From Toxorhynchites rutilus septentrionalis (lineage: Eukaryota > Arthropoda > Insecta > Diptera > Culicidae): DNA of 64,000 nt. The position numbers and the translations under genes are program-made. The stretch is taken from assembly GCF_029784135.1 (NCBI RefSeq), contig NC_073746.1, forward strand, positions 260,625,598-260,689,597, read 5' to 3'. This document shows, in pieces, positions 4,601 through 55,555 of the stretch. Below the pieces are notes generated by a model. The model was given only the letters and a program-made list of their open reading frames with translations, was not told the origin of the DNA and searched no databases. Every line of letters starts with the position of its first letter. Within the stretch, counting starts at the first letter, position 1.

Positions 4601-4630
4601 AAACATTCACACAAGAACAAAACGGCTTAC

Positions 4631-17278: not shown

Positions 17279-17703
17279 ATTATTTATTTAAATGTGGCAG
17301 GATTACGCACTCATTTCGATGAAATATGAAATCTAGCAAAAAACCGAAAATATTAATAATGGTTGAAACACATTTGACGGAATCAATTGATCTAAATGAA
17401 TTCAATGTAACTGGGTACACAATGGTAAATTGCTTGTCGAGGTCTGTGCATACTGGAGGCGTATCTATGTACATTTCCGGCCTTTTGAAGTTTAAAGAAA
17501 TTTACAATGATACATACATGGACAACTGGTTTCTAGCTGTAGAAATTAGAAGTTCGAAAATATCTGGAATCTGTGCTGGAATATACCATTCCCCGAGTAG
17601 TAGCGACAAGGATTTCCTAGAATTTCTGGAAGATGTTTGGTTGCAACATATACAAGAGATATCGACATTGAATTTGACGGTAATAAGGAAAGTGACTTCG
17701 TAA
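17279..17703 (+). pseudogene. Apurinic-type endonuclease domain, N-terminal part only
   Basis: The reading IIYLNVAGLRTHFDEI at about 17279 corresponds to the N-terminal NVAGL/N(V)RSL motif of non-LTR endonucleases and is followed by a stop at 17327. Frame 17326-17703 continues with MVETHLTES, which keeps the catalytic Glu context (ETHL), and VHTGGVSMYI. The later GDFN and SDH motifs are missing, and the frame runs into a short unrelated tail at about 17650-17703. In an intact element this domain nicks the target DNA. Confidence 0.7.
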
Positions 17704-24215: not shown

Positions 24216-24706
24216 GTATTAAAAAAAAAGAAAATTCATATTTGTTGGAGCATATGATCTTTATTCACATTTGTGCACATTACAATATGCCTGATAATGT
24301 TTCCAGGTGTAATTGAACGCGTAAATACAACAAAAGAGGTTTTTGTTCAATATTGTTGATGGTTAACAGTTATTAGCAGTGCGTATCGGATGGGGTTCAG
24401 CTGTATGGAATCACGATACACATCAAAGGACACGCGGTGCAACTGTAGCAAAAACCAATAATGAACAACATGCGAACATGCCGTGAAATGAAAATTTACC
24501 ACAACAATGCGATGGACCCTGGTAACAACACATTTTTCATTCAAGACAATGGGAGGGCACTTGGAAGTGGAATCGTCTATCGTGCTGGAAAACGCAGCCA
24601 AAATGCATTTCTTATCGCAGTATTACCTCGACTGTTTAGCAGTCAAGTGAATGTCGACGGAGGGTTTGAATACCTATCATGGTTCAGTTGTGAAACTGAT
24701 AGTGCG

Positions 24707-27700
24707 ATGATTGCGTTTCTTTGGGTTTTACTTTCGTTAGTTATCGCGGTTCTTGTGCATTGGCATTGGCGGAAGAAAGTGGCTTTCGCAAGGAACATTC
24801 CGCGGTTGGAGCCCTGCTACCCTATTGTGGGAAACTTACCGTTGGCTTTGATGAAAAATTCCAATCAAATATTCATAGTGCTTCACGATTTCTTCCGGAC
24901 TCATAACCGATTGTTTACATTGCGCTGCGGACCTTTGGTGGCCATCGGTGTCACCAATCCAGATCTAATTCAAAAAGTTCTCAATCATCCAGATTGCCAA
25001 CAAAAGCCAGACCTTTACAAAGTGGTTCGGCTGCCCGGTGGACTGCTGGCTGCGAAATGTGTGACTTCGAGTGTTTTGTGCGGATCGGGGCCCATTAATG
25101 AATATTTCTGTGTTTCAGATGAGACATGGAAGAAGCATCGCAAAACGTTGAATTCTACGTTCAACCTACGAATTCTGAATAGTTTTCTGCCAATATTCAA
25201 CGATTGCTCGAGGAAATTAATCGATCGGTTGAGTTTTTTCGCTGAAACGGATGAATCGTGCAACATTTTGGAGTACATTTCTGAATGTACCCTGGAAATG
25301 ATTAGCAGAACGTCTCTGGGCGGGAAAGCGATGGAACGGAAAGGAAAACAGGAGTTTATTGAAAACTTGAAAGTGTAAGTTTTTTTTCTGTGTTCCCGGG
25401 GTGGAAAACTTGCAAAGTATAATAGAAACCTTCAAGCTATATGCGTCAAAATTTTATGATAGTTACTTTTTGGTGGTCTAAATTCGCCAGTTATAAATTC
25501 AAAAAAATGACTAAAAGCTATTTCCTGAACCATCATAATAATGTTTTGAGTGATCTACTTCGAGCTGTAGTGCTTAATAGAATTGTTGGATTCAGCGGCA
25601 GTATAAAATCATATAATCTAAAAAAAATTTAACTGGCATAAATATTTCGTCTCAATTCTCAAATCTTGGTTCCACAAAAATAATGAACTATTTTTTATCT
25701 TTCACTCTAGATCATGGAGTGATAGTGATCATGGACAAAATGGTTCAAAAAATGATCTGTCCTTCAAGAATCATTTGTTAATATTTCAATGTTCCAAATG
25801 ATCATTTTTGTTTGTTTCAAGTATTCGTCTACTTCTTAAAGTGGGCCACTTTGCTTGGTAATTTATTGTCATTTTTAGGTAGTTCCATTGTGTCTCTGTG
25901 GTAGAAATCTATGTTCTTATTGGGAAATGTTGCATAGGAAGGAACAGTTTGAAAAATACTTGGTGTATGTAAAATAAGGTGGATGCATCAAAATCACCCA
26001 ACTAAGCATTCGCAGCTTCTGGTAGAGGATGGAACGAGTCAAAATAAATTTGATGTATTTATTTTGAGCGAGCATTTAAAAACCTGAATATCCCTCATTT
26101 TGTAGATGTGTGGCGTGAAATGATTTTGATTTTCACGTTTACTCAAAATGGCGTCTATTCAAGAGAAACAACATTTTAAAAATTTTACTCGCGCAACGCG
26201 AAAATCTAAAATCTGAATGTCACAAAATCAACTGTAAAAAACGTTATTTAAGTGATTGGAGAAACGTTTATCGACCGCCAGGAAACCTGGATCGAGAAAA
26301 AATCGGAAGCCGGAAGCTGCTGGGACGATGAAAAAAGTGATCAGACTTTTAAGCAAAACCCCATCCTCTCAGTCCGAGACGTCGGGTAGAGCATGGGATA
26401 TTCGCACATAACAGTGCAGAGAGCCAAGAAAGGAGTCGAGATGTCGTCCTACAAGAAGGTGAAAATTCCGAATCGCTACGACAGGCTGACCACAATAGCC
26501 AAACAACGACCCCGGAAGCTGTATACGGAGTTGCTCACGAAGTTCGATTGCGTCGTTATAGACGACCAAACGTAGGGGAGGTGGGGGTAATACGGACATG
26601 TTAAGAAGAGCTTCAATTATATCTTTGGAAACTCATGCTTTCCAAAACATAAATGCAGTTTTGTGCAATTCAATATACTGTTTTTGGAACTAATCGGCTA
26701 AATGTTTTACAAAAAAGTGTTTTGCAACGTTTTTTACTGAAATTAAAACAGATCGAAAAATAGAACATTTTTGTCGATGCTGGTAATATGGACATACGAG
26801 GTCGGTCCGATAAGTACTTAGCCTCATCGCCCGATGGTGCCAGTATCGCAAGAAAAGATTACTATCGTGTAGTACATTTTCGTAAACGGTTACTGTCAAA
26901 ATTTTAGCCGAATTGGACTCGTAGTATACTCGTAGTTTTGTTTTGACCGTGTGTGGAAGCGGGCGTGTCTGCGGATTTTAGAAAAATGGAAAAAAATGGG
27001 ATTTCCACCGTCGCCACGGCCAAATTGGTCGAATTGCACTAAGAACTGCTGCCCCACTTCTGTTTTCAAACTTGAAAATTTCACTCGCCGGGCAGAAATT
27101 TAAATCGAATGAGGAGGTCATCGCCGCCACGAAGGCCTACTTTGCAGACCTCAAGCAAACGTATTTTTCAGATGGATTAAAGAAGTTAGAGCATCGCTGG
27201 GTCAAGTGTATCGAGCTAAAAGGAGACTATGTTGAGAAATGAATCGCCACTTTTCCAACATTTTTGTTGTGCTTATCGGACTGCGTATAGGGGGGGGGGG
27301 GGTTATATGAACAGGTTTGTAACATATGAAGCGTAGGGGTTTATCGCTAGCGAGAAGAAGAATTTCGCTCTCTCTCCTCGTTTGTTTGTCCAGCAACTCT
27401 TCCCATCACTTTCCATCATGTATTCATGCCTGTTAACTAACAAACTGAAATATAATCATCAGTGAATTGAATTTTGATATTGACACGTTGAGCTCCAATT
27501 TGTTCTTGCTTCGCATTTCTCGCATCAACCGTTTGTTAATTTTGCACCGTTTGCACAATGTCGGTCCCAGCTCCTAAAGATACTTATTGTATAGATAGGA
27601 AATAATTCGAAATTCGACAAGAAAGTAATCACATTTAATAACACATCCGTAAACAAACCATACATCTTTTTTAATTTTTCGTTTTGTAACTGTCAGTCCC

Positions 27701-33700: not shown

Positions 33701-36136
33701 CAAGACCTCTATGATAGAGACATTATGAAGCGACCTTTAGAATGAGCAACCAATTTTGCAACAAAACGGTGCATATTTCACCCAAATCGGACAATCCGAG
33801 GCATATTAAAAATAGTTTTAATTTCACCCAAAAATAATGGATTACTTTTTTCTCAACCTAATAAAACAGTTCGGCTGAAAAGTTTATAAGGTAACACATG
33901 AAAACATTTTTTTTTGCTAAATTCTATTTTATTATTCAACATCATTGCCTTCGAGGGCGATACAGTGACTATAGCGATCTTGCAACAGCGAGCATTCTCC
34001 TCAGGTCTGCCAACAGAAAATAGTCGATAGGGCCAGATTTTGAGAATAAGGTGGATGCGGAAGCAATTAGAAGCCCAATTCATGCAATTTTGCCATTTTG
34101 TTCATTGATTTGTGATTTTTTAATTTTTTTCTCAATAACTAATGTTGCTTCATTCTCAATGCTGTAACTCACGAGCCAATCGACCGATTGCTGTCAAATT
34201 TTGACACGTATGCATTGAAAGATGGTGCTTTGTGATAGTAAAGTAGATTTTTGCAAGAGGCGCCATCTAGAAGTCAACCTTATGAGCTTTTCAGCCGAAC
34301 CCAAACATCAAGATTCTTTTTGTATTTCAACTTTTTTCAAGTGTGTACGAACGAGTTTTGTTTTGTTCTGGACAATAGAAGCGAAGCTTGACGGTTGCAC
34401 ATGATGATTTCCATTATTTTATCGACATCCTGGAACAAATCGTGGTGCAACCACGACATCAAAACTACCGGAATGGAATCCACGAAATATAAATTGTTGT
34501 ATTACAAATACAATACTGTCTGATAGTTGTGTCATGTGATTCGATCCCCCTAACGTTATTTGATGTTTCCCGATAGAACTTAGATACAGATTGTTATTAA
34601 CGTTAACTGGAGAACTCGGACTGGACTCAGACGTTTTGCTACACTTAATATTTGTATAGCACGAAATAGTACTAACCCGTTTCGGGCATTTTGTAGATCG
34701 TATTACAGTTTCGCCATGTAGTCGTAGAAGTTCATCATAATTTAACCTATTTCTCGCAGTGCCCTAAATGCTCTCGGAAAGCGGATATTGAACGTGTTGC
34801 TACATAGTGATTTTATTTATCGGTTTACTCAGCTCTACTACAATGAAATGAAAGCAATCGCTGTCTGTCATCAGTTCACAGATAAGGTAACAGTTCAAAT
34901 TCATTTATGAAACAATACCTACCGTTGTGACTCAAGTTCCGAATACTTCATTTTACAAATCAAACTTAACTGAACAAATATGTTTTTTCGATACCTATAA
35001 ATGGTATTTCACGGACGGGTTAATTTTAGAGAATATCGGGGTATTCATAATTCATTTATTTATGAATGAGGGGCTCAATATTAAAAGGGTGTAAGTGACA
35101 TTATAGATTTTAATAGTAAACTCAAATTGGAACGTTTTTGCAATTGGGTTATAAGCTAAAAAAAAGTTGATGAAGAGAAATGGATCAAATCACTTACACC
35201 ACTTTCCTTCTGAGCCCCTCAAATTTAGTTTTTAAAATGAAGTGTTCAGAAGTTTAGTCTGTTCGAAATATTAGTCAAAACGAAACTCTCGGTTACTCCT
35301 CTAGATTATTGCCGAAAAACGCACTGAAATAGGAACTTTGCTGCATAATAATGGAAATGTGATTGAATCGGACGCAAACTATAAGCGACCGCAAATTTTC
35401 ATCGATCAACTGATGAAAATGCCATTGAAAGCGGATGGAGTGTACAGTTTCAGTAATCGGGAGATTTCTGATCATATTTACACTATGATAGTGGCTGTAT
35501 GTGATTATTTTCCGTAATTTTAGAACAAATATCATTTCGTGCCTCTTTTAGGGAAATGAGACATCCGCTACCCAACTCTCTCATACGTGTCTTCTGCTGG
35601 CGATGTATCCAGATATCCAGGAACGAGCCTACCGCGAGGTTCGGAACATTATCACCTCACCAGTGATGGAAATCAACATCGATGATTTGAAACAACTAGT
35701 TTACATTGAGGCTGTGATCAAGGAGGCGATGAGACTGATACCTGTGGCACCGATCATAGCCAGGGAGAATCTACGCGACATAGAGTTGGATGGCCACCAT
35801 ATTCCGAAAGGGACCCTGTTAATGATGAATTTCTACTCACTTCATCGGCGTAAAGAGCTCTGGGGTCCATTTGCGGACCACTTCGATCCGGAACATTTCC
35901 TCGAAGATGCGGCAATGCAGACAAGACATCCTTATGCCTATTTACCATTTAGTGGAGGCCCGCGCGGTTGCATCGGCTATAGATATGCAATGATGAGCTT
36001 AAAACTGGCACTGGCATTGATATTGAAAAACTTTCGGCTCACAACGGAAATAAAGTACGATCAAATTCAATATCAGTATCAGATATCGTTGAACCTAGCT
36101 TTACCTCATACGGTTAGTTTGAAGAGAAGATTGTAA
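24707..36136 (+). CDS. Cytochrome P450, CYP4 clan (CYP325-like), complete
   Basis: Heme monooxygenase anchored in the ER membrane. Exons: 24707-25058, 25119-25374, 34760-34886, 35305-35496 and 35552-36136; all phases agree and give 503 codons plus stop. The start at 24707 is chosen because MIAFLWVLLSLVIAVLVHWH is a typical membrane anchor; the upstream in-frame ATG at 24461 would put an unlikely leader before it. Motifs: Pro-rich hinge (IPRLEPCYPIVGNLPL), C-helix WKKHRK, I-helix GNETSA split by intron 4, EAMR (ExxR), FDPEHF, and heme loop FSGGPRGCIG with the Cys ligand. Exon 3 (ALNALGKRILNVLL...HQFTDK) was found by phase and fit. Intron 2 (9,385 bp) is filled with transposons. Substrate unknown; CYP325/CYP4 members act on lipids, hormones or xenobiotics. 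Confidence 0.9.
26795..27287 (+). mobile_element. Internally deleted mariner
   Basis: The ends CGAGGTCGGTCCGATAAGTAC.. and ..GTGCTTATCGGACTGCG are inverted and flanked by TA. The 3' part reads SNEEVIAATKAYFADLKQ and GLKKLEHRWVKCIELKGDYV, the C-terminus of a mariner transposase. The catalytic core is deleted. Confidence 0.8.
27480..27773. mobile_element. TTAA-target MITE, copy 2, with empty site known
   Basis: The element is 27484-27769 (CACGTTGAGC ... GGGGCTCAACGTA), flanked by TTGA (one change from TTAA) and TTAA. The collinear host repeat at 15090-15125 shows the uninserted site, TTTTGATATTAAACCACTC. The central palindrome TCGGCTCCTAGGGACCGA resembles that of copy 1. Confidence 0.8.
27905..28535 (+). 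pseudogene. DD37E-type Tc1/mariner transposase remnant
   Basis: Frame-broken C-terminal half: SDLVSCHYGKNIGKVF carries the second catalytic Asp context (normally PDLASCHYGK), followed by VMVEPKDYKPPNIPK and later KVDEAALYKAYWSEMQKKTAG. The P-x-E-x-YW segment that should hold the Glu is not cleanly readable. Several stops and shifts; dead. The same subfamily recurs at 40010-40600 and 47105-47290. Confidence 0.65.
28803..29088 (-). mobile_element. tRNA-headed SINE, full-length copy 2
   Basis: The SINE body is 28816-29075, minus strand, between CCGTCTGTGGGTT (28803-28815) and CCGTCTGTTGGTT (29076-29088). The B box is GGTTCGATTCCCG, with the GAA tail on the left. The A-box region differs from copy 1 (GGGCAAAGC in place of GTGGTTAGC). 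Confidence 0.88.
30475..30790. repeat. Palindromic GAGCC/GAACC repeat (foldback-like)
   Basis: Many alternating copies of GAGCCGTGGCTC, GAACCGCGGTTC and their complements, which can fold back on themselves over about 250 bp. A shorter relative lies near 55180-55270. No coding sequence. Confidence 0.6.
30796..31056. mobile_element. TGAGGGGCTTAGAATG MITE, copy 1
   Basis: The element is 30798-31054. The ends TGAGGGGCTTAGAATGCAAGGGGTGTAAGTGA and (complement) TGAGGGGCTTAGAATGAAAAGGGTGTAAGTGA are inverted, with TA on both sides, so a Tc1/mariner- or pogo-type mobiliser is likely. The related copy at 35067-35221 lies in intron 3 of the same P450. Confidence 0.75.
31135..31385 (+). repeat. Three degenerate direct repeats (~65 bp)
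   Basis: AAACCCCATnAATATGGGTATCnAATGAAnGGACTTGAC.. ..ACAGTTATT recurs at 31139, 31257 and (degenerate) 31333, spaced about 75-118 bp apart. Confidence 0.6.
31681..32246 (+). pseudogene. Unrecognised ORF interrupted by a SINE
   Basis: A frame from 31681 (SVWEEFDALVGNLRSTHPKA) runs into the SINE target site, and the frame after the second target duplication (AEPNYLRFGGMKKKP) is the same one, so a coding-like stretch of about 75 codons existed before insertion. No family recognised; it may belong to an older transposable element. Not expected to be functional now. Confidence 0.3.
31830..32133 (-). mobile_element. tRNA-headed SINE, full-length copy 3
   Basis: The SINE body is 31842-32121, minus strand, between perfect 12-bp duplications AGATAAACATTT (31830-31841 and 32122-32133). 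The head has TGGCCGAGTGGTTAGCGTCA and GGGTTCGATTCCCG, and the tail is (GAA)6. Identical duplications and the long tail suggest the youngest of the full-length copies. Confidence 0.92.
33000..33860 (+). mobile_element. Mariner, degraded
   Basis: The element is 33002-33858. The ends GGTTGGGGAAAAAGTTATCCATTATT and (complement) GGTTGAGAAAAAAGTAATCCATTATT are flanked by TA. The plus strand gives the transposase start (MEVNKEKIRYILHF) and, after a gap of AT-rich filler, MHPLYSPDPAPSDFHLFLAL and DKKMG.REDCKKLEF. The YSPDLAPSD-type motif is the mariner signature with the third catalytic Asp. Stops are present throughout. Confidence 0.85.
33869..34300. mobile_element. Short mariner-like element, GTTCGGCTGAAAAG ends
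   Basis: GTTCGGCTGAAAAGTTTATAAGGT and the complement of the right end (GTTCGGCTGAAAAGCTCATAAGGT) form a 24-bp inverted repeat with two mismatches. The 432-bp interior has no intact ORF. The target duplication is unclear. Confidence 0.7.
35067..35221. mobile_element. TGAGGGGCT MITE, copy 2 (short)
   Basis: TGAGGGGCTCAATATTAAAAGGGTGTAAGTGA at the left and CACTTACACC ACTTTCCTTCTGAGCCCCTCA at the right, 155 bp, an internally deleted relative of 30798-31054, inside P450 intron 3. Confidence 0.7.
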
Positions 36137-37402: not shown

Positions 37403-37730
37403 CTACTTCTGTCGGTTTGGAACGACACGATTCGTTACACTGTTCATGATACGGTTCGGCAGGCTTGGCATAGTAGCATTTTCAGCTCCCATGCCGCCAG
37501 GCATTTCCGGTGTAGCTGGCACTTCTGGGGTGGAAGGAAGATCTGGGGTGGCAGGTAGCTCGGGCATAGTACCGTTCATGGCGGGCAGTGCAGGTAACCC
37601 CTGGGGAGCTGCGTGAATTGCTAGAAGTACAAAAAGGTGTGTGTGTTAAACTAAACGTTTGGACGATACCAGTAAATTGTGTTATACCAACGACAGACAG
37701 GAGGATGGCAACGAAGGCGTGTTTGACCAT
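37403..37730 (-). CDS. Small secreted Pro-rich peptide, paralog 1 (unrecognised family)
   Basis: Family not recognised. Exons (-): 37730-37688 and 37620-37403, intron 67 bp, 87 codons including the stop. Exon 1 is the hydrophobic signal (MVKHAFVAILLSVV); exon 2 begins AIHAAPQGLPALPAMNGTMP with a likely cleavage after IHA. The mature part is made of L-P/E-x-P steps (PELPATPDLPSTPEVPATPE), with one NGT and one NAT sequon, and ends in SLPNRIMNSVTNRVVPNRQK. Same gene plan as 46698-47009: an exon 1 of 43 nt, the same intron phase and position, the same IHAAPQ junction and the same PAMNGT and LPNRI blocks. No cysteines. Possible tissues (salivary gland, reproductive tract, gut) are guesses; nothing in the sequence decides. 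Confidence 0.75.
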
Positions 37731-37769
37731 TTTGACTAGGACGGTTTTCTGTACTGTGTGCTAGATATC

Positions 37770-37807
37770 CACTGCTATCGATTCGACGAAGTAGTACAGT
37801 TTTTATA
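37770..37807 (-). promoter_or_regulatory. TATA box of secreted peptide paralog 1
   Basis: TATAAAA on the minus strand at 37801-37807, 71 bp upstream of the ATG, with an AGCAGTG initiator-like site about 30 bp downstream. Confidence 0.55.
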
Positions 37808-38186
37808 CAAATAATTTCACACAGTAAACTCTGTTATCAAACCCATAATTATGTAATTTGGATACTTTCTTTGTTCTAGACAGTCGAGAGATAGAGCATG
37901 ATTGATGGTCGATTGAAACAAACGCCAATCATAATTGTTTGGTTATAAATTACTTTCTTGTAACAATTCGACCATATACTTAACAAAATTAATATTTAGA
38001 TGTAGATTATTACAATATTAAGTAGAGCATGTAAAATGAAAAGGGAACATGAAACTATAAATAAAGCTCCCATGGCCGTTACACAAAGCGTGATGATAAC
38101 TGCGGATAGATTTCATTCTTTGATCGGGAAATTGTTCGTCGATGAAAGTTCTCATATGTGCTTTGTATTTGCGATAATGAATGACA

Positions 38187-38465
38187 AATCTATATATATA
38201 AAAATGGATTTCTGTCTGTCTGTCTGATTCTTATGGACTCGGAAACTACTGAACCAATCGACATGAAAATTGGTATGAAGGGGTTTTTAGGGCCAGGGAA
38301 GGTTTTCGTGATAGTTTGAGACCCCTCCCCCCTCTCTAAGGGGGGCTGCCATACAAATGAAACACACATTTCTACATTATTCGAGAATTAATCAAGCAAA
38401 TGCAACTAAATTAGGCATCTGGAGGTTTTAGGGTGCAATAAATGATTCTATGGTGGTTACCCAGC
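38187..38465 (+). mobile_element. Helitron 5'-terminal segment
   Basis: TCTATATATATAAAAATGGATTTCTGTCTGTCTGATTCTTATGGACTCGGAAACTACTGAACC... begins with TC after an A. It carries the block GACCCCTCCCCCCTCTCTAAGGGGGGCTGCCATACAAATGAAACAC that I know from insect Helitron 5' ends. Family recognition is from memory. The 3' end is not nearby, so this is a fragment. Confidence 0.6.
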
Positions 38466-39423
38466 AAACATTAAATCGCATAACAAGCGTATATATATAA
38501 CATCATATGCCTTAAATTTTGATTGGCATAAATGCGCCTAACTGGCATATACATGCAAAAGTGGAGGCCATATACATACATGGCAAATGTTTACCGAATA
38601 AGTTTGGATGAATATGCAATTTTGACCGGCTATAATAGCGATTATGTTGAAATTGAATTGCGATCTTATATGAATATATTCATGAATTGTCAAAGCTTCC
38701 AATACGACTTTTGCCATACTCATATACGATTTATTACAAACATAATAGAAAAAAAATGGCGCAAAATATTTTCGTTAAATGTTTATTATAACCTCACGAA
38801 TCGCCATTTTTATATATGAGTATTTATGTTTGTGGAAATAATAATTGTTTAATTGACTTGTGTTGGGAGTGGAATTTGGCGAAAACTGCTCCAATGTGTG
38901 TTCGAACTCCGGTCGTCTGGATTATCATTCACCAGCTTTCTCGCGCGGCTATCTGAAATTTAATTCAGCAGCGGTTAAAACTCATACATATGATTCGATA
39001 TGATATAACCTAATACATTCTACGCAGTAGGATCAGCCATTCCTGGTTGCCGATATTATTATTCAACTATGTTCCAAAGAAAAAGATCTTTGATTTCCCT
39101 ATCATAGAAACCAAATATATAATATCATTGAACTGGAATAATAAAAAATAAATAAATATCAATAAAACTATCTCAATTTTAAATTATTTTTATTACAATG
39201 TTCACTGTACAATTTGTTTTCTCAATCTCCAACTCCAAATCCAACTAAATTCTGATTACTATTATAATAAATATAATAAATCAATCTGGCAACCTTGCAG
39301 AGCGATGCGATGCAATGTGCCAAATTCGATGTGGTATATATTTAAGATTGGCGTTCAATGGCGTAATTCACTTCGTTTTGCTGCATGTTTCATTAGAAGG
39401 GATGTTTGCCGTTGTTACTTTCA
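38466..39423. other. Intergenic, no recognised gene
   Basis: AT-rich. 38530-38820 has an open frame rich in Tyr/Ile without any recognisable domain, best explained by base composition. Confidence 0.35.
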
Positions 39424-39556
39424 TCGGAATACATTCAAGGCGTGTTGTTTGGCTTGAAAAATCTCAACTAAGTATTAATAAATCACGCTAGTTAATGCAT
39501 ACTTAATGCAGACGGCAAAAGTTCCACAGGGAACGTTAACGCCATTCAAGAAGAAT
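39424..39556 (+). mobile_element. tRNA-headed SINE, 5'-truncated copy
   Basis: Only the 3' half is present: CATTCAAGGCGTGTTGTTTGGCTTG ... GACGGCAAAAGTTCCACAGGGAACGTTAACGCCATTCAAGAAGAA. It matches the 3' part of 14427-14684. The A and B boxes are missing. Confidence 0.85.
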
Positions 39557-40009
39557 TTTCTAAAAACGCAATTTTTTGGTAGTTTATTCATTACCTTAAA
39601 CTAAATGAAGAAATTCTATTTCCGAATTGACGACACTTGAGTTTTCGTTAGGATAGAGTTGATCAATGAGCGTGAGAGCTACAAAGTATGAAAACAAAAA
39701 AAAAAAGGTTTCGGATTTGTTAAAAAATCTGACAGTGTGCTTTTCATAATGATACGACCACTCTCGATTATTCGTTTTCCACGCGTTTCAAGTTTCAAGT
39801 CTTCCTAAACGAATGATGACAATCGATAAATTGTGATAAAAAGAGATTAAAATCCGGAAATCATGATGGGGGATCAAAAGAGTAACTGAATGCAAGAGAA
39901 ATAGAGTGTAGTCACTGTGTTGTCTTAAATTTCCATAAAAATCCGCTAAATATGTCCAAGAAATAGTTCAGAATGAAACAAAAAACTGTAAAAAAATGGG
40001 CGTCATAAA

Positions 40010-40605
40010 GGGTGTACCGTTCAAAATCCGCATACACTCAAATTGCTCTAACTTTTGATCCTTTGGGTAAAATCAATTGAAATTTTGCGTAGACATAGTT
40101 TAAGTGTAATGTTTACACTCTGTGAGTTGATGTCATCGAGTGCGCAAAAATGTTCAAAATGGATATAAAAGAACATTGCGTGCGCGAACAAGTACGTATA
40201 TGTAAAATACGTATCTGTCGCATCGTGTCAGCGGAAAAAAGTGGGGAATCGCGAATTACACGGTGTCTGGTATCATAAAATGGCTCGAACGAACATCTGA
40301 TCGGAAGCGAAGATCCGGTAAAAAAGCCGTCTCCTTTCGTTATCGCAAGCACCACGAATAGACAGGTGTATTTGGAAGAGTGTCTCCAAAAGCAGCTTCG
40401 CCCTCTCCTGAAGGCTCACGACGGTCTTCTGGCCGGATTTGACATGATGCCACTACACGAAGGACGTGTTAGAGTATAAGGCGAATGATGTCGATTTCGT
40501 GCCGAAAGTTCTGAATCCCCTAAACACTCCGAAACTACGCCCAATAGAAAAATACTGGAACATTATGACATCTGAAACGATCTAAAGTGACGTAGAATGT
40601 AGAAG
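40010..40605 (+). pseudogene. DD37E-type Tc1/mariner transposase remnant, copy 2
   Basis: The N-terminal part reads MFKMDIKEHCVREQVRICKIR. The C-terminal part reads RQVYLEECLQKQLRPLLKA, then in another frame HYTKDVLEYKANDVDFVPK and LRPIEKYWNIM, where PIEKYW holds the catalytic Glu. The second Asp region is damaged (GFDMMPLH). A possible left terminal repeat GGGTGTACCGTTCAAAATCCGC starts at 40009. No intact protein. Confidence 0.65.
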
Positions 40606-40939
40606 AAATGAAGAAAGCTTGGGTTAACCCTTTGCTGTCATTTGTTTACTCTCAGCCACCACAGCAAGGAATCATACTAAATACTTCATTCAACGATGTC
40701 ATTGTCCCAATTTTTTCTAAACGAATTTTAATGTCTAGTGCACTCATTTGTATGATATATATGCTAGAGCCAATATGAAGGAGCGAAACAGAAGATACAT
40801 TTAAATGAAAGCTTAAAGCCAAATACACGCCAAATACACGGCCCAGACAGAGAAACATATATTCTCGTTCATGTTCTTCTTTATCGGCTTAGAAAACACC
40901 TTCCAACTTCATTTTAAGATGAGGTGTAATATTATCACG

Positions 40940-41220
40940 CTTCTTTATAATAGCGCTGGCAGCTATATGGATAGCGTGGTCGTGTAAAGTAACTTCGCAT
41001 TCCAGCCGGTCTTGGTTCGATCGCCATTGACGTCGTATGGACTTTTTTTTTGCACAATCCCAAATGAAAAGAGAAAAGAAAACAGAAAGAGATGTCTGCT
41101 CGCATACATACAAACCATTTTTATGCTTCAAAATAGCTCACTATTTGCGCATTTGACTCTCATGTCCAGGAAATGGCATCTTTTCTGCCAAAGATGACAT
41201 GTTTTCTGCCAACGCTAGTT
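40940..41220 (+). repeat. Possible third tRNA-like SINE type
   Basis: GATAGCGTGGTCGTGTAAAGTAA (A-box-like) is followed 32 bp later by GGTTCGATCGCC (B-box-like) and an AT-rich body. Only one copy was found and there are no clear target duplications, so this is tentative. Confidence 0.35.
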
Positions 41221-41639
41221 TGGGTGTAGCATTAATTGTTTCATTTTACTCCCAGAAAATTTGATGATAATCGAACAAAAACTTGAGTTTTGAGAATGAT
41301 ACACACATCCTTTATTGTCAAAAATTCATCGAATATAACGATGAGTTAGTCGAAAATTTGAGCTGAACTTAAGTTGGACGCTTCAGTTCCGACGGATTGG
41401 CTGGCATTGAAAAGTTTCTAAAACATTGTACGATCAAAAATAGTTAGTGCACCACTTGCACTACCTCGGCACAAATAAGCAAGATCAGAATTCTCACGCC
41501 GAAACATGTTTCAAGATTGAAAAAAAAAATGGAAACGTTCTTTAGCATTGTGCTTCTTCTTGGTTGCTTTTAAATTTTATGCGTTCAAACCAGTTAATAT
41601 AAATTCTATCGAAATTCTCACGGGTGAATTTCTCAGACG

Positions 41640-42165
41640 AGAAAAAGCTCAACTTGGACGGACCGAATGGATATGACGGCTATTTGCGAGATTTGCGCAA
41701 GGAATTTTGGGGTAGTCTGACATGGTGTGGGGAGCATTTTGTGACTTCGGAAAACTAGATCTCAATTTTATTTCACACAAAATGAATAGTTCTGATCACA
41801 TTAAACTTCTGGAAGCCAGTTTGCTACCAATTCACAGAAGATCAATAGCAAAGCTTATTTTCCAGCAAGACAATGCCAGAATTCATGCCAGTACTGGAAC
41901 GATGACGTGGTTTAGGTCTGACAAGATTGATGTTATGCACTGGCCGGCAAGATCTACGGGCCCCTAGAACCCTTTTGAGAACCTCTGAGGAATCATGGCT
42001 CGACGGATATATGCTGTAATCGTAAATTTTCAACGATTGAGGAGCTGAAAATTGCTATTCTTCAGTCGTGGAATGATATTGAACTGGCAACACTGCAAAA
42101 CTTGACACAAAATATACTAAGGTGTATCTTTCAGGTAAGGCGTGATGCACAAAATGCGTAACGCT
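41640..42165 (+). pseudogene. Tc1-like (DD34E) transposase C-terminal half
   Basis: MVWGAFCDFGKLDLNFISHK leads to FQQDNARIHASTGT, the second catalytic Asp context of Tc1 transposases. It is followed by VMHWPARSTGP and, after a stop and frame changes, by sequence matching the NPIENLWG-type Glu region (ENL.GIMARRIYA) and the C-terminal STIEELKIAILQSWNDIEL. The damage falls right at the third catalytic residue (SPDLNP became STGP). Terminal repeats were not found. Confidence 0.75.
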
Positions 42166-43476
42166 AAAAATTCATATTTTGGAGCCCCTTCCTTTGCAAT
42201 TCCTATATCTAATACACAGAAAGTAATGTAATTCGATCCGCTCCCCCCTTCTCGCGTTACGTAATTTGTGCACGACACCGAATCACCCTTACTGACGGTA
42301 TAACAGAATATTTATTGATTTATTCATCATTAACTCAGGAAAAACTGCTGGTGGTCGTATCATTTTGAAAAAGCATTTATACGAAAAAAAACATTTTAAA
42401 CAATTTAAACAAGTTTTATGAAAAAAAAAATAATTCTTGAGTTGAAACGCATCTTTTAATATACTATTGGAGAAAAGCTCAAATTTTATTCGCCTTTCAT
42501 AAATCTTCAGATGATCTTAAAATAATAATTATATTCATTGTGATAGATAATTGATAATGGATATAATGGATATGATTATCAAGATAAACAATTGAATAAT
42601 TGTAAAATAACAAAGCTTTATATAAAAGCGTTAAATCCCACGTTTTGATTGTCTCAATTGGTGCTCTTCAAATTGTATCGAATAAAAAGGGCAACTAGAG
42701 TAATGGCGGAATACAGTTTGACTACATCAATACTACTGCGAAAACAAACATAGCTACCCATCGTGCATATCGTTCTATCCAAGGGAATATGAAAAAACAA
42801 CGAAGCCAACACACGCACAAGCTTGTGAGTTGTTGTTTGTTTTCCTTCTCTCTCTCGTAAGGCTGCTTGCACATACAATGGTTTTGCTCAATACGATGGA
42901 AGCCAGAAGAGAGGGAAAATATTGTGTCGCAAGCTCCACCCTGTGTGTTTATACAGCCAGTTAACACTTTCGCGATTCAGTTGTGTTTCTTGCGAGGCCC
43001 AAATTGACTGTTGGTACGCTAGACGATAATCAAAGAAATAAACGTGGAACAATGATTTTTCACAATACTTTTGAAAAAATAGTACTGAATCAATCCTTCA
43101 TTCCTCAATGATCGATTCAGTACTACTTTTTGCATAAATATGGTGAAAAAGTCCTCAAACTATGCTCTACAGCAGGGTAAAGATTCTTTGTGAAAGTATA
43201 TCAAGATGACAAACCAGCGGAAGAAAATATGTTGGTCTAGCCAGTTGAATTTTTAATTTATTGTGCACATATTTCAATAAAATGCCATATCATTAGAAGA
43301 TTCATGAGGTGATCCGAAATATAAATGAATGGAAAGTATAGTATAGTGTAACAGGTATATTTTAACATTATTCATTCCAATTGAGAGAGTGACACACTTC
43401 AAAAATCTTGAAGAAAAAAAATATTCCTTTTGCGGTTGATCGCTTTTGCGCCACAGAGAACTCTACTTAATATCTA
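42166..43476. other. Intergenic, no recognised gene
   Basis: AT-rich with several microsatellite-like ATGATAATGGATATAATGG runs near 42530-42580. Short open frames on the minus strand at 42654-42967 show no domain. Confidence 0.4.
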
Positions 43477-44489
43477 TACTGCGTTCATAACTATAGAACC
43501 ACTCCCATTTTCTGAGTTTCCAGATATATGTAAGAAGTCGGTTGAATTGAAGTATATAGTGTAGAATACAATAACTTTCTTTATACTTTTCTTTATATAT
43601 GAACAGTCTGAAGTGCAACTTAGTACTTCAGAATCATTTACTACATTTTTTGCATCAAAAACACCGTGATAATTGGGTAATTTGGCATCAATTCATAAAA
43701 TTCGGAAGGTCATGGCATAGTTTAATGAATAGGGGCTTCAGAATTCGGACTGGTCTGCTTGTTCACCAAATCAAATCCCTGTCAAGAACTACTGAGGAGT
43801 GATCGTACGAATAGTAGATGCAGCTTACAAGCAGTATGAGGATTTGAAGAGCTTAAACGAGCAGTATCCTCTGCGTAGAATGAGATACACACTACAACAT
43901 GGCGCAGCTTGCTCGAAACCACCCCGAATAGGTTATTTGAACTGACTGAGAACTAAAGATGACCTACGAATTAGAAACTTATTGTAATTCATGTGAAATT
44001 AACGTTAATTTTTTAGAGGAGTGAGAGTTTTTCAATCTGGTTCTATAGTTATGAAACACTGGAATAAAATTCAAATGGCCAGTCTTATGAAAGAATTATA
44101 TCCTAGACCTACACTTTATGTGCTCCCGTGGTCGAGTGGCTAACGTCACACCTAACATGCAGGGGGTTCGGGTTCGATTCCCGTTCTGGTCGGGGAAATT
44201 TTTCGTCAAAGAAGTTTCCTCCGATTTGCACTGTGGTTACGCGTATTCTAGAGCTTGCCACTCAGAATGCATTCAAGGCGTGTTATTTGGCATAGAAATC
44301 TCAACTAAGTACTAATAATAATGACGCAATTAATACTACGTTGAGACGGCGAAGTTCCTCTAGGAACGTGAGTGCCAATTGAGAAGAAGAAGCAGATCCT
44401 ACACTATATACTTCAATTTAACTGACTGCTTACAAATCTCTGGTAATTCAAAAAAAAAGTGTGGTTCTATAGTTATGAAACGCAGAGTA
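43477..44489. mobile_element. Tc1-like element with ~80-bp inverted ends and nested SINE
   Basis: The left end (GCGTTCATAACTATAGAACCAC ... TTGAATTGAAGTATATAGTGTAG, 43481-43566) and the complement of the right end (44402-44484) match over about 80 bp. Inside is a short degraded N-terminal-transposase-like frame (43599-43802) and a further copy of the terminus (GGTTCTATAGTTATGAAACACTGG, 44040-44063). The SINE 44120-44397 is inserted near the right end. Confidence 0.7.
44108..44409 (+). mobile_element. tRNA-headed SINE, full-length copy 4
   Basis: The SINE body is 44120-44397, flanked by CCTACACTTTAT (44108-44119) and CCTACACTATAT (44398-44409). A box GGTCGAGTGGCTAACGTC; B box GGTTCGATTCC; tail GAAGAAGAAGC. 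Its body is closer to copy 3 (31842-32121) than to copy 1, sharing the TTCCTCTAGGAACGT block. Confidence 0.9.
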
Positions 44490-44631
44490 TAGCATAGCTT
44501 CTTCGAGATAGGGATGAGCGGAGGGATCAAACAAAAAAAAATAAACTGAGTTTATTAAAAAAAAGTATTAAAGTGTATGGAGAATCTAACGAGAATATAC
44601 AAATTCTTTTTAAAAAATGGTTAATACTTAA

Positions 44632-44975
44632 TACAGTAGAACCCCGATTTTCCGCGGAATACTCTGACAAGGGCATCGCCAATAACGAAAATCGCGGATA
44701 ACGAGATAAAGGACTAAGAATGAGGTGCAAACACGAAATAAAAATATTTCAGCACGAAAACTATGTTTTATCAATACAAAAATCCTTAAACTATCCGTCT
44801 GAAAGGTAGTGTACATCACTGATCAGATAATGTAAAGCCATGGCCAAAACAAAAGGGCAAGCGCCTACCACACAGTGACAAATTTCGGGAAGCTCTCTAG
44901 AATCACTATAGAATACGTTGCGCGGATAATCCACACCGCGGTCATCCACTCGCGGATAATCGGGGCTCTACTGTA
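44632..44975. mobile_element. pogo-like MITE 2 (CAGTAGAACCCCGATTTTCCGCG ends)
   Basis: The element is 44634-44973 with TA on each side. The left end CAGTAGAACCCCGATTTTCCGCGG matches the complement of the right end (CAGTAGAGCCCCGATTATCCGCG). These ends are of the pogo/Tigger type. No ORF. Confidence 0.75.
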
Positions 44976-45235
44976 CTTTCCGAAATCGTAGCGTACTTAA
45001 ACTCTAGAATGAAGGAAGCGATAAAATGTTACCATACAACCAAATTATCAGTATCGTGACACCTTTCCCGTGACCCTACTGACTACAAGGATTTTCAAGA
45101 TCCTTGAGAGTCGCTTTACTAATAACTTAGAACTCTATAAAAGAATATAAATTTAACATTGTATATTCAATTATTTTCATGCACAAATATGTTACACTCA
45201 TAAGAATGAGATGCAGAGGGCAACACCTAACAACG

Positions 45236-46459
45236 TTTCGGATCAGGGTTGCCACATATACAGAATATTCTGTATTTTACAGATTTTTCACCAAAATGAG
45301 ATACAAAATCTGTATGTACAGAATTACAGATTTTCAGCGAATTGCAGAATTTACAGATTTTTTCAAAATTCATTTTTAAGTATAAAATTTATTACAGTAC
45401 ATACATACGAGGTGTGTTCAAAAAGTATCGCGAATTTTGTGTTTTTCAAAAACATATTTATTTATTCATGAATATCAATTTTGTCCCCTTCAATGCAATC
45501 CCCATGAGATATTATACACTATTATACACTTATACACTCACAGGAGGGCAGATCTGGGGAATACGGTGGCTGTGGCATCATTAGTGTGTTGTTTTTAGCC
45601 AAAAAGTCGCGCACAAGCAACGATGTGCGAGCAGGGGCAAAGTGCAAAGGCCGACCCGCCTCATGTCCAAATCATTGATAAAAATCGAATGGAACGAGCC
45701 GATCGATATGTCTAGGTTCACAGCAACTTCTCTAACGGTGATTCGACAATTAGCCAATACCATTTTCTACCCTTCATCAATTTTTTCGTCTGTTGTTGAA
45801 GTGCTCGGGCGTTTGGCACGCTCTTCGTCGTTCACATCTTCTCGGCCTTCTGAGAACATTTTGTACCACCAATAAACGTTGCTTCGTTCCAACGCAGCTT
45901 CTCCGTATGCCACAGTCAACATTCGTAATGCATCCGCGCACTTAATTTCGTTTTTTCACACAAAATTTGATACAGGTTCTTTGATCCATTTTTTTGAATA
46001 GGTAACAATCGAAGACGAGTCAAAACACGTCAAAACACGTGCAAAAAAGCAGCTGTCAACAGTTAACTGAACATTCAACATGGCCGAACATGTCGGTATA
46101 AGTGAGAGACATGAGTACCAACATAACGCCACTAAATAACCGAAATTCGAATATACGTAACCCGCGAGAATTCATAATTCGCGATACTATTTGAACATAC
46201 CTTGTAGATACCTTGATTTATAAAAAAAAATAACACAACGCTACGAGATGGATTCCATTGGAGGCGGTTATTAAGCGAAATCTTGAGCGATTTGAAGAGA
46301 TTAAACTTTATAAGAAAAATTACTTCAATGTGAAAATAAATCTTTATTTCCATTTTTTCCTTAACTTTCCGATACAGATTTTTTTAGCTTAAAAATACAG
46401 ATGTACAGAATTTTTTCAGAAATTTTTACAGAACTAAATGTGGCAACCCTGGTTCGGAT
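45236..46459. mobile_element. hAT-like MITE with 8-bp duplication, carrying a mariner
   Basis: The element is 45244-46451. The ends CAGGGTTGCCACAT and (complement) CAGGGTTGCCACAT are identical over 14 bp. The flanks TTTCGGAT and GTTCGGAT differ at one position. Repeated CTGTA/TTACAGA motifs fill both arms. Without the mariner at 45408-46204 the element is about 410 bp. Confidence 0.75.
45406..46206 (-). mobile_element. Mariner, degraded, nested
   Basis: The element is 45408-46204. The ends CGAGGTGTGTTCAAAAAGTATCGCGAATT and (complement) CAAGGTATGTTCAAATAGTATCGCGAATT are flanked by TA. The minus strand encodes CRITVREVAVNLDISIGSFH, the helix-turn-helix part of a mariner transposase, then LAKNNTLMMPQPPYSPDLPS-like sequence in a shifted frame. 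The central domain is lost. Confidence 0.85.
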
Positions 46460-46562
46460 GATGGAATGGATATTACCATTTTGATGTTCGAACTACTCAT
46501 ATCGCAAAATTACACTTTTCGCGTTCCAATTAAAAGAATCGAGCGGTTATTGTTATTGAGTG

Positions 46563-46660
46563 ACAGATAAGATGGCTAATTTACATATAAATTGACCGAA
46601 GCTAAAGTGGAGGTCCCCGGTATAAAAGACACTCCCAATTTGTTGAGCTGCATACATTCA
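46563..46660 (+). promoter_or_regulatory. Promoter of secreted peptide paralog 2
   Basis: TATAAAAG at 46621-46628 with a TTCACTG initiator-like site about 35 bp downstream, and a GATA-type site (AGATAAGA) at 46565-46572. The 5' UTR would be about 40 nt. Confidence 0.6.
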
Positions 46661-46697
46661 CTGCAACCACTGAACAAGTGCATCAACAGCCACCACT

Positions 46698-47009
46698 ATG
46701 TTTTTCAAACTTGCATTCGCCGTTGTTTTGGCTATCGTTGGTAAGTGAGCATAAGTTTGCCCCAAATATATTGATTGTTAGAACTATATTACTTATGTCA
46801 CAGCCATTCACGCCGCACCACAATTGGGAGGATTGCCAGCGGTTCCGGCCATGAATGGAACACTTCCTGAACTTCCAGCAGGCGCCCCTGATCTACCAAC
46901 ACCCGAATTGCCCGAATTGCCAGGCGCAGGTGGCGGCGCTCCAGGTGCTGAGAGTGCCAGCCTGCCAAATCGCATAACCAATCGCATTACAAACAGAGTA
47001 AATAACTGA
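46698..47009 (+). CDS. Small secreted Pro-rich peptide, paralog 2 (unrecognised family)
   Basis: Family not recognised. Exons: 46698-46740 and 46804-47009 (intron 63 bp, GTAAGT...CAG), 82 residues. Signal peptide MFFKLAFAVVLAIV, then AIHAAPQLGGLPAVPAMNGT as in paralog 1. The middle is PELPAGAPDLPTPELPELP followed by a Gly/Ala stretch (GAGGGAPGAESAS), and the C-terminus repeats LPNRITNRITNRV. One NGT sequon; no cysteines. Identical intron phase and exon 1 length show recent common origin with 37403-37730, in opposite orientation. The conserved ends and variable middle suggest a repeat-rich extracellular peptide; its role is unknown. Confidence 0.8.
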
Positions 47010-47104
47010 AATCTGGCCAATCGAATGTTTACGAAGAATTTGGAGTTTTAAATTTTGATCATTCATTGTTTTGAAATATACCTGATTGTAGACGAAATCA
47101 TGAA

Positions 47105-47290
47105 ACAAGTTTATTATACCGCTTGACAATTGTCCAATATTTTTCGATTGGGAGGAATTGGGGGCAACTGGGAGGATTGAGGTATTTTCAATGTAATCGA
47201 CCCAATTTTCACGGTACCACTGAAGCAGCATTCGATTGTAGTGACAGTTTGCCCAATATGGCCAAAATTTCGGACCTTTGTGAGCCCTGT
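47105..47290 (-). pseudogene. DD37E-type transposase C-terminal fragment, copy 3
   Basis: The minus strand reads WPYWANCHYNRMLLQWYREN, then WVDYIE, and after a one-base shift CPQFLPIEKYWTIVKRYNKL. The spacing and the HYN..LQWY and PIEKYW motifs are those of DD37E elements. The second catalytic Asp is replaced (PYWANCHY instead of PDLASCHY). Confidence 0.7.
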
Positions 47291-47452
47291 TAAACGGAAG
47301 GAAACATTTCTGCAGGCACTCTTACATTTTCCAGTCCATTGTCTTGTTTGTGACGAGAACCTTGGTTTTCTGTTCACAGCTGCAAACCCCTCGCCAAATC
47401 AAGAACTTCCTGGCAAATTTACTAGAGGAAAAGGACTTAAATTTGCTGGGGA

Positions 47453-48454: not shown

Positions 48455-49122
48455 TCAATCCGGTTGTCTCAATCCGCTATAATTCGTTCTAAGCATCGCG
48501 GTCGCCTCTATTCGCTGAATAAAAATGCGGTCGTCTCGACCCACTAAAAACACTCAAAGCGCGGTCGTCTCGATCCGCTACAAATGTTCAAAGCACAGCC
48601 GTCTCGATCCGTTACAAATACGGCGCTCGTCTCGATTCGCTATAAGCGGGCGTCGCGATCCGCTTTTAATAACAACAAGCGCGGTCGTCACGATCCGCTT
48701 TCAATTACATCTAGCGCGGTCGTCTCGATCCGCTTTTAATAACAACAAGCGCGGTCGTCGCGATCCGCTTTTAATTACATCTAGCGCGGTCGTCACGATC
48801 CGCTTTTAATTACACGGTCGTCACGATCCACTTTTGATAATACCATGCGCGGTCGTCGCGATCCGCTTTTAATTACACCAAGCGCGGTCGTCACGATCCG
48901 CTTTTAATTACATCTAGCGCGGTCGTCACGATCCGCTTTTCATTACATCTAGCGCGGTCGTCGCGATCCGCTTTTAATAACACCAAGCGCGGTCGTCACG
49001 ATCCGCTTTTAATTACATCTAGCGCGGTCGTCGCGATCCGCTTTGAATAACAGCTAGCGCGGTCGTCACGATCCGCTTTTAATAACACCAAGTGCGGTCG
49101 TCACGATCCGCTTTTAATTACC
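48455..49122. repeat. 35-bp GC-rich minisatellite, about 19 units
   Basis: Core unit CGCGGTCGTCACGATCCGCT plus an AT-rich half TTTAATTACATCTAG. The units vary mainly in the AT-rich half (AATAACAACAAG, AATTACACCAAG) and at the CGTC(A/G/T)CGATC position. The left units (48455-48650) are shorter and more diverged, as expected for an older array edge. Confidence 0.9.
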
Positions 49123-49138
49123 ACGATTCCGATCCCAA

Positions 49139-49272
49139 TGTACATCACTACACATATCAAACAAAAAATGTACATCACTACCCATTTATAAAAATTACAT
49201 CACTACACATTTCAAACAAAAAATGTACATCACTACCCATTTCAAACGAAAAATGTACATCACTACACATTT
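49139..49272. repeat. 30-bp tandem repeat, 4-5 units
   Basis: The unit TGTACATCACTACACATATCAAACAAAAAA recurs from 49139 to 49272. It lies directly after the 35-bp array inside the gypsy-type element. Confidence 0.85.
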
Positions 49273-51551: not shown

Positions 51552-53151
51552 CTAGCGTGCTCCCCACGCCCTGCGGATCAGATGGGCTCCTTTTTCGGCT
51601 ATCATTATGACTGGCGCGTTTGTATTGCCAGATGTAACCTTGGGCATAACCGAAGCATCCACCACCCGGAGGTTCCGAACTCCATGCACTCGCAGCTCAT
51701 GATCAACGACAGCCATAGGATCTCTCAGTGGTCCCATCTTACATGAACCAGCCTGGTGATTTTCAGCCCCGGTATTTTGCCGCACTGCGCACTCCCAGTA
51801 TTCCTGAAATAATATAGTTATCAAATGCGCTCGATATGCGGACTTTATTCGCTTACCTGTGATCCGAATTCATGATTCTGGCAGTCCTTAATCGGTGTAC
51901 GGTCCAGTTGGATCCCGTAGGCTTGCAGTGCATCGGTATCAGCTAGCCGCAGAGCAAACTTAATTCCTTCAACCAACACCTTCACATCGTGTTGTTCTTT
52001 CAGATAGTTTACGACAATCTTGGGATGATCTAGAGGGTTGCTTGATTTCAGCTCGATGTACCCACGACTCTTCGGGTGCAGAACGGCAGGGAATATTTGA
52101 ATCGAGCGTGAATCGTTGCTAATCAATTCACCCACTTGACCACTCTTCGCACAATCCGCCAAAAATCCCCCGAAGTAAAACTGCACATCGGGATCGTTCG
52201 GTCGCTCTGCGTACTTGGTGCTTATTTTAGCCGTGACCGCAGACACTCCCGTGCCGGACATGAGACCATCTCGGAACAGAAGGTATTCCATAGCGGTTGC
52301 CCAGTTCAGAGGGGCAGTGTTTGTGTCGTTGATATAAAAGTTGATGAAATATGCAACGTGATTGTGTAGATTACGTCCAACTCCGGGCAAATCGTGAATC
52401 GTTCGGATACCAACTTCATCGAGATGTGCTTTCGGACCAATGCCGCTGAGCAGTAGAATCTGGGGAGAGTTCACTGCACCACCACTGACAATGACTTCTT
52501 TCTTAACCAAAATCTTGCGCATATGGCCGTCTTCGTCAACAACCTCGACACCGTGGGCTGTTTTTGAGGTCGGGTGAACCAAAATCTTGGTAACCGTAGT
52601 GTTCAATAAAATATGCAAATTCTGTCGATTAACGGCGGGACGAAGGAAAGCACGAGATGAGCTGTATCGGATTCCATTCTTGCTGGTGGTCTGAGCTATC
52701 ATGAAACCGGTAGTGTTGGCTCCGTTTAAATCATGCACACTATAGCCCAGTTCTTCACCTGCCTTCAGCACCGAATGGGAGAAAGGAGGGTTGTATGGGA
52801 ACTTTGAGACTGGAAGCAGTCCACCGGTCGTATGGTACTTGCTGTCAACCTCATTCATCTGTTGGTTATCCTCCGACTTCATGAAATAGGGCAGAACATC
52901 CTTCCATTTCCAACCGGCGTTACCCATTGCTTCCCAGTCATCGTAATCCACGGGATTGCCACGGATGTACATCATTCCGTTCATGACCGACGTTCCGCCA
53001 AGAACTTTACCGCGTGGCCAATAGCAGCGTTGTTCGGGCGATCCCAGACATCCATACTGTTCCGGCTCCGTGTTGAATTTCCAATCGATATCGCTGCCGA
53101 TATAGTTGAGGAACATTGAAGGAATCTGCGCTCCAGTCGGCTCGTCCGCCC
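51552..53151 (-). CDS. GMC oxidoreductase, glucose-dehydrogenase-like (5' partial)
   Basis: FAD-dependent oxidation of a sugar or alcohol; insect members are usually secreted. Exons (-): 53151-51857 and 51803-51552 (53-bp intron, CAG|GTAAGC ... TTTCAG). 515 codons are visible. It starts at an acceptor (CGTTTAG|GG) with [20 protein letters not shown], so a preceding exon carrying the FAD-binding GxGxxG motif is required and was not found in the remaining 10.8 kb. GMC signature 1: [23 protein letters not shown] signature 2: [17 protein letters not shown]. The C-terminal active site is [12 protein letters not shown], with the catalytic His, and [16 protein letters not shown], with the catalytic Asn. 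No frameshifts, so the gene looks functional. Which GMC subfamily it belongs to (glucose dehydrogenase, ecdysone oxidase and others) cannot be told from motifs. Confidence 0.9.
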
Positions 53152-53159
53152 CTAAACGA

Positions 53160-55555
53160 TGGGATGAAATTGGTAAAAGAAGTGAGAAAGTGAATAAAGG
53201 TTGTAGTGATTAACGACTAAGCCATTGTGTAGTTAATTTTGCCGGTAATTAATTTTTTGCCGCGTTCTCGGTGAACATGTGTACGCTTGAAGGCCCCATT
53301 CCAACATGTTTCATGTTGTAGAGTAAATAAACGAACAGTGCTGGTATCAGCGTGTATCTTGAGACCATTTGTTATCACACATTTAGCTACCGATGTGGAA
53401 AATTGGTGAAGTCATCTAGTGAAACTGTTAATCACCCGACCACCTAGCGTTCGGGTACCGAGACAAGGGAAGAAAACTAATGTACCACCAAACAGTGGAC
53501 GCGTGGGGAGACCGATGTAAACATCAAAAAGGGCTATCAATTTATCTACTTCCATTCGATTTGGTAATTTGTTGCCACCATTTTCTCCATTAAATAGCTC
53601 AATACTTCTACGATGTAAACACTTCTGTTTTGATGCAATACTTGTATTATTATATATACTGCGTAGATACAGCAGGGGTTGGTTTTTGCAATCATCAAAG
53701 GAAACATTTCTGTTTCTTCAACAAATCTGAACGTTTTTCTGCATTCAAGAAGCATCCGTCTAAATCCGTGCAAAATTTTCCCAGAACTGCAACGACGGAC
53801 GTACCAAAGAGCGAATAAGAAACATAAAGCGGGAAAATCACTGTTCTGAACACCCCGCACGAATGAAACTGTGGGAGTTTTTTTTTCTCTCCGTCAAAAC
53901 TTTGCATTATCGGTAGGTATGTTTTCGACATGGACGATATTGAATTCAAAGCTCAAGCAGTTGCGTATAGTTATCTCGTGGTGTGTATAGCTTCAAAGTG
54001 CTTTTCTTTTATGTATACATACCACTGTAGCGCAAGAGATTGCGTCGGGCATGAGCGATTGCGATCTTGAAACGCAACACATAAATTACAGGGAAGCTCA
54101 CGGATGCATAAGGTTATCAGAGATATGAGTTATAATAGAACCGTGTGTGAGACGAGCATGAATCATTCATATTTGTTCGAGTCATTCCTAGTTTGACGTG
54201 TAGTCACTGCGAGCAGACAACTTCGAAGTGCAAAGTGCTTTTCTCCTACTTCAACGAATTATGTTTTGTTTTCGAGCATGGGAAAAGTTTGAACAAAATA
54301 CATATACGTTTCGAACTTGAAATGCGCCTAGAATTTTCTTGACATGTACTTTAAAGTGCTACGAATGGCAGAAGTACGGTGATTCTGCTCAGAAGAACAA
54401 CTTATGATGTATGTCCATCATTAAAAAGCGACTAGTGCTTGCATCAGTTGGATTCTGAAAGCACTACTTATTCTACTAAAGCGCTCTCATCGGTTGGTTC
54501 TCTAATATTTTGATAGCAGGTTTGAAATGTTGCACGAAAATGGTGTTTTCAAAAATTTTATTTTGATGTCAAATGTCTTAAAAATGCATGAAACGTCGAG
54601 ATCCACTGTCATCTTGATTTTTTTTTTTGTAAAAAATCGACGCTCTGAGTTTTTGAAAACCGAAGAATCACCGGAAATCAAAGTTTACAATTTTTTTTTG
54701 ATGCCAAATGTCTTGAAATTGCATAACACGTTGAGATTTACAGTTATCGAAACTAGTAAATGAAGTCCGATCGAGCTAACATTTTGCATTGGGTATTTTA
54801 TCGTGTAAATCACAGGTGACATATTTGGCATCCACATTTTTTCGAAAACACCATTTTCATGTACTTGGGTGATTTTTCGATTTTCAAAAAACTAAAACTT
54901 TGCGCCACTCTCCCTGAAGTCCGATTGAGATGAAATTTTGCATAGGGTGTTTTTTCGATGTGGTGAACATTTTGTATGGGGTTACTTTTTGAAATTCGAG
55001 ATGACGATTCTCATTGGCACTTCTTTCACCATTTTTTTTTGGTTATAACACAAACAGTGAAGATATTAAAACAAATAAACAATTTAGCTGCTTGTGCTAT
55101 GAGAGAAGAGCAACAAATAACATGTCCCCATACAATTAGGGTTTTAGCCTTCATGGTGGATAGGGGTAATCCGTTCACGAACCAAAGAACTAGTTCGCCA
55201 AAAAGATTGAACGAACGGTCGTTCTTTTTTAAAAAACGGTAGCCCGTGATTCCGAACGAAATGCTGGAGAACGAATTATGTGCAGCTGAACTGAATACAT
55301 CTAACGATTTCGATGCCTGAATGCCTGAATTTGACGTCAGATTACGGCTTTCATTTCTATACTGGGGTGTAAGTTCAAAGTTTCGAAAACCAGAGCGATA
55401 CATTGAAGAAACAAAATTTTTCGTGATGGACAAGGTGAGTCGATGCATGTTGAAAATTATTCTACATTTACCGATGGCGTTATCAGAACCAAAGAAGAGG
55501 AACATTGTTCATGCTTCGCGCCCATTGAGAAAAACCGGTCGAATCTGGGATTTGT
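53160..55555. other. Intergenic or intron of the GMC gene, repeats only
   Basis: No domain recognised. 54520-54960 contains repeated GATG(C/T)CAAATGTCTT(A/G)AAA..GCAT blocks, related to 32235-32290. 55180-55270 has a GAACGAACGGTCGTTC palindrome related to 30475-30790. Confidence 0.4.

Follow-up and report, generated by a model that had tools for sequence, protein, structure and literature searches.

Two divergent paralogous genes for small, proline-rich, secreted-looking peptides in the mosquito Toxorhynchites rutilus septentrionalis

The window, i.e., the whole stretch of 64,000 nucleotides of contig NC_073746.1 that was analysed here, contains two small genes which face away from each other. 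We refer to the gene on the minus strand as gene 1 and to the one on the plus strand as gene 2. A preceding sequence-only reading had located the pair, and both genes were recovered at the proposed coordinates and on the proposed strands (Table 1). Each consists of two exons separated by a short GT-AG intron, and the intron phase is common to both, as had been suggested. The TATA boxes that were expected close upstream are present as well, at the same distance from both start codons. Furthermore, the residues AIHAAPQ at the exon junction, the block PAMNGT(M/L)PELP and the motif LPNRI are found in both genes.

Table 1. Coordinates of the two peptide genes, their signals and the elements lying between them
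Feature	Position	Strand	Remarks
Gene 1	37403-37730	-	
Gene 1 exon 1	37688-37730	-	43 nt; ATG at 37730; begins the signal-like N-terminus
Gene 1 intron	37621-37687	-	67 nt, GT-AG, phase 1
Gene 1 exon 2 with stop	37403-37620	-	remainder of the 86-aa precursor
Gene 1 TATAAA	37802-37807	-	starts 77 nt 5' of the ATG
Gene 1 AATAAA	37277-37282	-	possible poly(A) signal, downstream of the gene
Gene 2	46698-47009	+	
Gene 2 exon 1	46698-46740	+	43 nt; ATG at 46698; begins the signal-like N-terminus
Gene 2 intron	46741-46803	+	63 nt, GT-AG, phase 1
Gene 2 exon 2 with stop	46804-47009	+	remainder of the 82-aa precursor
Gene 2 TATAAA	46621-46626	+	starts 77 nt 5' of the ATG
Gene 2 second TATAAA	starts at 46586	+	112 nt 5' of the ATG
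Tc1-like fragment	41716-41967		DDE_3, 22.9 bits, below the cut-off of 28.6
Mariner-like element	45406-46206		34-nt inverted ends, 88% complementary

The gene models involve a choice among several splices. Candidates had to be GT-AG, to keep the frame open, to have the donor within the first 80 nt and to remove an intron of at least 40 nt. Nine such splices exist in gene 1 and six in gene 2, the chosen ones included. In gene 2, a single one of the six joins exactly at AIHAAPQ, with a first exon of 43 nt. Two splices of gene 1 join exactly at this sequence, leaving a first exon of either 43 or 61 nt; here the 43-nt version was chosen because it makes the AIHAAPQ junction with 43 nt common to both genes.

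The start codons are 8,967 nt apart, in line with the approximately 9 kb given before. The description of this gap as transposon debris holds in part: two elements were identified (Table 1), which do not make up the whole gap, and the Mos1 HTH_48 match of the mariner-like element reaches 22.0 bits, below its cut-off of 24.1. Elsewhere in the window, a long reverse-transcriptase frame was observed (17604-19301, plus; RVT_1, E 2.2e-31), together with a tandem array of 35-nt units (48646-49118, 13.7 copies) that is adjoined by a 30-nt array (49137-49272).

The neighbouring genes are as expected for an insect. An odorant-binding-protein gene on the minus strand (36866-36255; PF01395, E 1.2e-11; 168 aa) was modelled with the exons 36866-36600, 36539-36395 and 36349-36255, the splices being picked by eye among 12 frame-keeping models. 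A frame at 4607-5731 (minus) matches DGCR8 with an E-value of 2.9e-66; DGCR8 is a subunit of the Microprocessor and is named pasha in flies. Two P450 frames on the plus strand (24449-25378 and 35552-36136), about 10 kb apart, represent either two genes or a single one that is interrupted by a long intron. On the minus strand, a GMC oxidoreductase exon lies at 51845-53209, and the frame at 51552-51869 resembles, by eye, the C-terminal part of this enzyme. The window holds no Rfam family at the gathering score and no tRNA.

The relationship of gene 1 and gene 2 is most apparent at the protein level. In 55 of 77 aligned codons the residue is the same, and 38 of these 55 shared residues are encoded by different codons. 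Differences at the first, second and third codon position amount to 20, 7 and 51, respectively. When the peptides are aligned from after residue 14, the score is 201; 5000 shuffles averaged 35.6 (sd 7.4) and never exceeded 70. Identity is unevenly distributed: 22 of 24 residues agree from AIHAAPQ to PELPA, the tail has 11 of 16 in common, and the middle, which had been called variable, retains 15 of 24. Before AIHAAPQ, 7 of 13 aligned residues agree; the first exon that the two genes were said to share is thus common in its length, and not in its sequence.

At the DNA level, blastn (E 0.01) between the 7-kb stretches bearing the genes returned a single match. It is 134 nt long with 78% identity, lies outside both genes and joins 39424-39555 to 44262-44388 in their flanks. 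The likeness of the two genes sits in the protein and not in the DNA, as would be expected if an old duplication had been followed by purifying selection. YN00 gave a dN of 0.25 and a dS of 1.23, i.e., dS is near saturation; the resulting dN/dS of about 0.2 is only rough, since NG86 returned no dS and LWL85 failed for this pair. One may ask whether gene 1 and gene 2 are chance open frames in non-coding DNA, as both frames are short and known here from the sequence. Such an origin is scarcely credible, as it is at odds with both the codon-position pattern and an alignment score far beyond the shuffle maximum. The earlier proposal of paralogous small genes for proline-rich peptides with a secreted look is supported by gene structure and by constraint at the codon level. 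As far as a sequence permits such a statement, we are dealing with two intact paralogous genes of matching structure whose protein has been under constraint.

The copy number was addressed in the genome of the species itself (902,557,243 bases in 514 contigs). With gene 2 as DNA query, only the gene itself was matched at E 0.001, and the protein of its exon 2 had no match up to E 10 other than the two known genes. The exon 2 protein of gene 1 matched five places, comprising the two genes and three weak matches with E-values of 1.24, 1.41 and 7.85. The latter were rejected as third copies: two are frames in simple repeats, and one is the Lys/Pro-repeat part of an open frame of 399 residues. The genome hence has two copies by this search, and a very divergent third may exist, because the best candidates only were scored, with single-sequence queries and no profile.

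What kind of peptides do these genes encode? The cleavage of the putative signal peptide was judged by eye to follow AIHA, and the values of the mature peptides rest on that cut: 68 aa, 7060 Da, a pI of 5.0 (5.01) and 14 prolines for gene 1, and 64 aa, 6289 Da, a pI of 4.6 (4.59) and 12 prolines for gene 2. Acidic and basic residues number 5 and 4 in the former, 5 and 3 in the latter. Cys, Tyr, Trp, Phe and His are missing from both. The sequon NGT is common to the two peptides, and both tails repeat the pattern N-R/S-I/V-x. A structure predicted for exon 2 of gene 2 is irregular, apart from one helix that spans residues 54-67 of the 68 modelled; this model, derived from a two-sequence alignment, is a weak one (mean pLDDT 65.6, pTM 0.22). 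We also considered an amphipathic tail and dismissed it, as the hydrophobic moment is not significant (matched by 5.4% and 7.7% of 10,000 shuffles).

Two functional readings can be weighed on these properties. With so high a proline content, the pair could be taken for proline-rich antimicrobial peptides. These are basic and carry a net positive charge, whereas both mature peptides are acidic, and we consider this reading improbable. Neuropeptides or hormones that are cut into smaller active peptides would likewise suit the short length, the secreted look and the conserved core of the precursors. However, a dibasic site occurs in neither precursor and, by eye, the amidation sites Gly-Lys and Gly-Arg are absent from both, which makes this reading more improbable still. 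Both fit worse than a secreted exocrine product, because dibasic sites are missing and the peptides are acidic.

Our preferred reading, which we put forward tentatively, is that gene 1 and gene 2 form a family of two, encoding peptides which are secreted from an exocrine tissue and probably glycosylated. Secretion is inferred here from the appearance of the N-terminus. The signal peptide would be cut, probably after AIHA, and release a chain of approximately 64-68 residues that is presumably disordered, besides being acidic and rich in proline. N-glycosylation would take place at the common NGT, inside the most conserved block, and the N-R/S-I/V-x tail may fold as a helix. An exocrine tissue such as the salivary gland, the male accessory gland or a similar one could then release the peptides. 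The GLPA-PAMNGT-PELPA block might serve as a contact site and the Asn/Arg tail as a second contact, with the proline-rich middle as a spacer whose length would be free to vary. Besides the weak model, the non-significant hydrophobic moment of the tail and a dS near saturation, two further observations count against this exocrine reading: a further sequon, NAT, occurs in gene 1 only, and neither AATAAA nor ATTAAA is found downstream of gene 2 within 47000-47300. A more far-reaching version is conceivable and, in our judgement, quite unlikely: a family invented within one insect lineage, with two divergent genes under long protein constraint, whose glycosylated PAMNGT-PELP core is recognised as a ligand by one particular receptor or partner during mating or feeding.

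As to the tissue, two special cases of the exocrine reading were compared. The male accessory gland is a tissue in which odorant-binding proteins are frequent, as are small secreted peptides that change rapidly. The peptides might be seminal ones, and the odorant-binding-protein gene, which lies directly downstream of gene 1 on the same strand, would be in agreement with this. Such a neighbour is, however, weak evidence; many tissues produce odorant-binding proteins. A precedent is Aea-HP-1, described in the available part of PMC3368272 as a small peptide of the Aedes male gland that is transferred to the female. All in all, a seminal role is possible and rather unlikely. The same grade is given to a role as salivary blood-feeding peptides, in the manner of the proline-rich salivary secreted peptide of Aedes, and the two cases stand about level. 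In the accessible portion of PMC2644710, a peptide of that name is reported for Ae. aegypti, restricted to female glands, and An. darlingi has a relative; an excerpt of PMC4801386 puts the peptide's level in female glands >100-fold above that in male ones. Against a salivary role, ABF18046, the protein annotated with this name, is listed at 21 kDa as a recombinant protein in the portion of PMC11094246 at hand, versus 7.1 and 6.3 kDa for the pair.

Searches for relatives are consistent with the earlier statement that no named family has this plan, where Pfam, NCBIfam, PDB, the viral contigs and the protein set are none of them a survey of insects. A lineage-restricted mosquito family, as proposed before, stays a conjecture, the one insect genome searched being that of the species itself. 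In Pfam, no family was found up to E 10 for either peptide, and there was no match at the gathering score. NCBIfam returned none for gene 2 and three for gene 1, all far below the cut-off. A large protein set from public genomes and metagenomes yielded 36 candidates for gene 2 and 141 for the two-row alignment, with none at E <=10. For gene 2, 86 stretches of viral contigs fit the pattern and 0 were confirmed. Sequence matches in the PDB were judged to be chance: gene 1 reached no better than E 0.99, gene 2 no better than E 0.33 and the profile no better than E 3.2. Eleven overlapping peptide strings met only unrelated character runs, in three papers, in open-licence literature text, and the accessible text of PMC3878727 has nothing on a proline-rich family.

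From a biological point of view, these genes are real, perhaps unnamed, and nothing out of the ordinary. Insects have many small orphan secreted genes, which annotation easily overlooks. Two copies in one genome suffice to demonstrate that the protein is constrained and to point out a conserved core for assays. Should saliva or seminal fluid turn out to contain the peptides, these would be added to the candidates of unknown function in vector biology.

Among the named systems, the Aedes "proline-rich mucin" ABF18067 resembles our pair in being proline-rich, in its case by name, and has 100 aa according to the available part of PMC12641683; the comparison is limited to one octapeptide from that source, which by eye occurs in neither precursor. 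Closer in kind is the proline-rich salivary secreted peptide of Aedes, found in female glands only, whose An. darlingi relative, AD-267, is 47% identical (PMC2644710, in the part accessible). ABF18046 carries this annotation among the recombinant proteins in the corresponding part of PMC11094246, and it is the annotation name that ties it to the peptide of the older papers. As far as these partial sources go, ABF18046, AD-267 and the pair have in common that they are of secreted type, rich in proline, from mosquitoes and with no known function. ABF18046 is set apart by its listed size, about three times that of the mature peptides here. The small size, in turn, is shared with AeMOPE-1, a secreted peptide of the Aedes 9.7-kDa family with a mature mass of 7.84 kDa. 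The available section of PMC8327214 describes AeMOPE-1 with cysteines, a basic pI of 8.56 and no predicted N-glycosylation, whereas the two peptides presented here have no cysteine in the mature part, are acidic and carry the NGT sequon.
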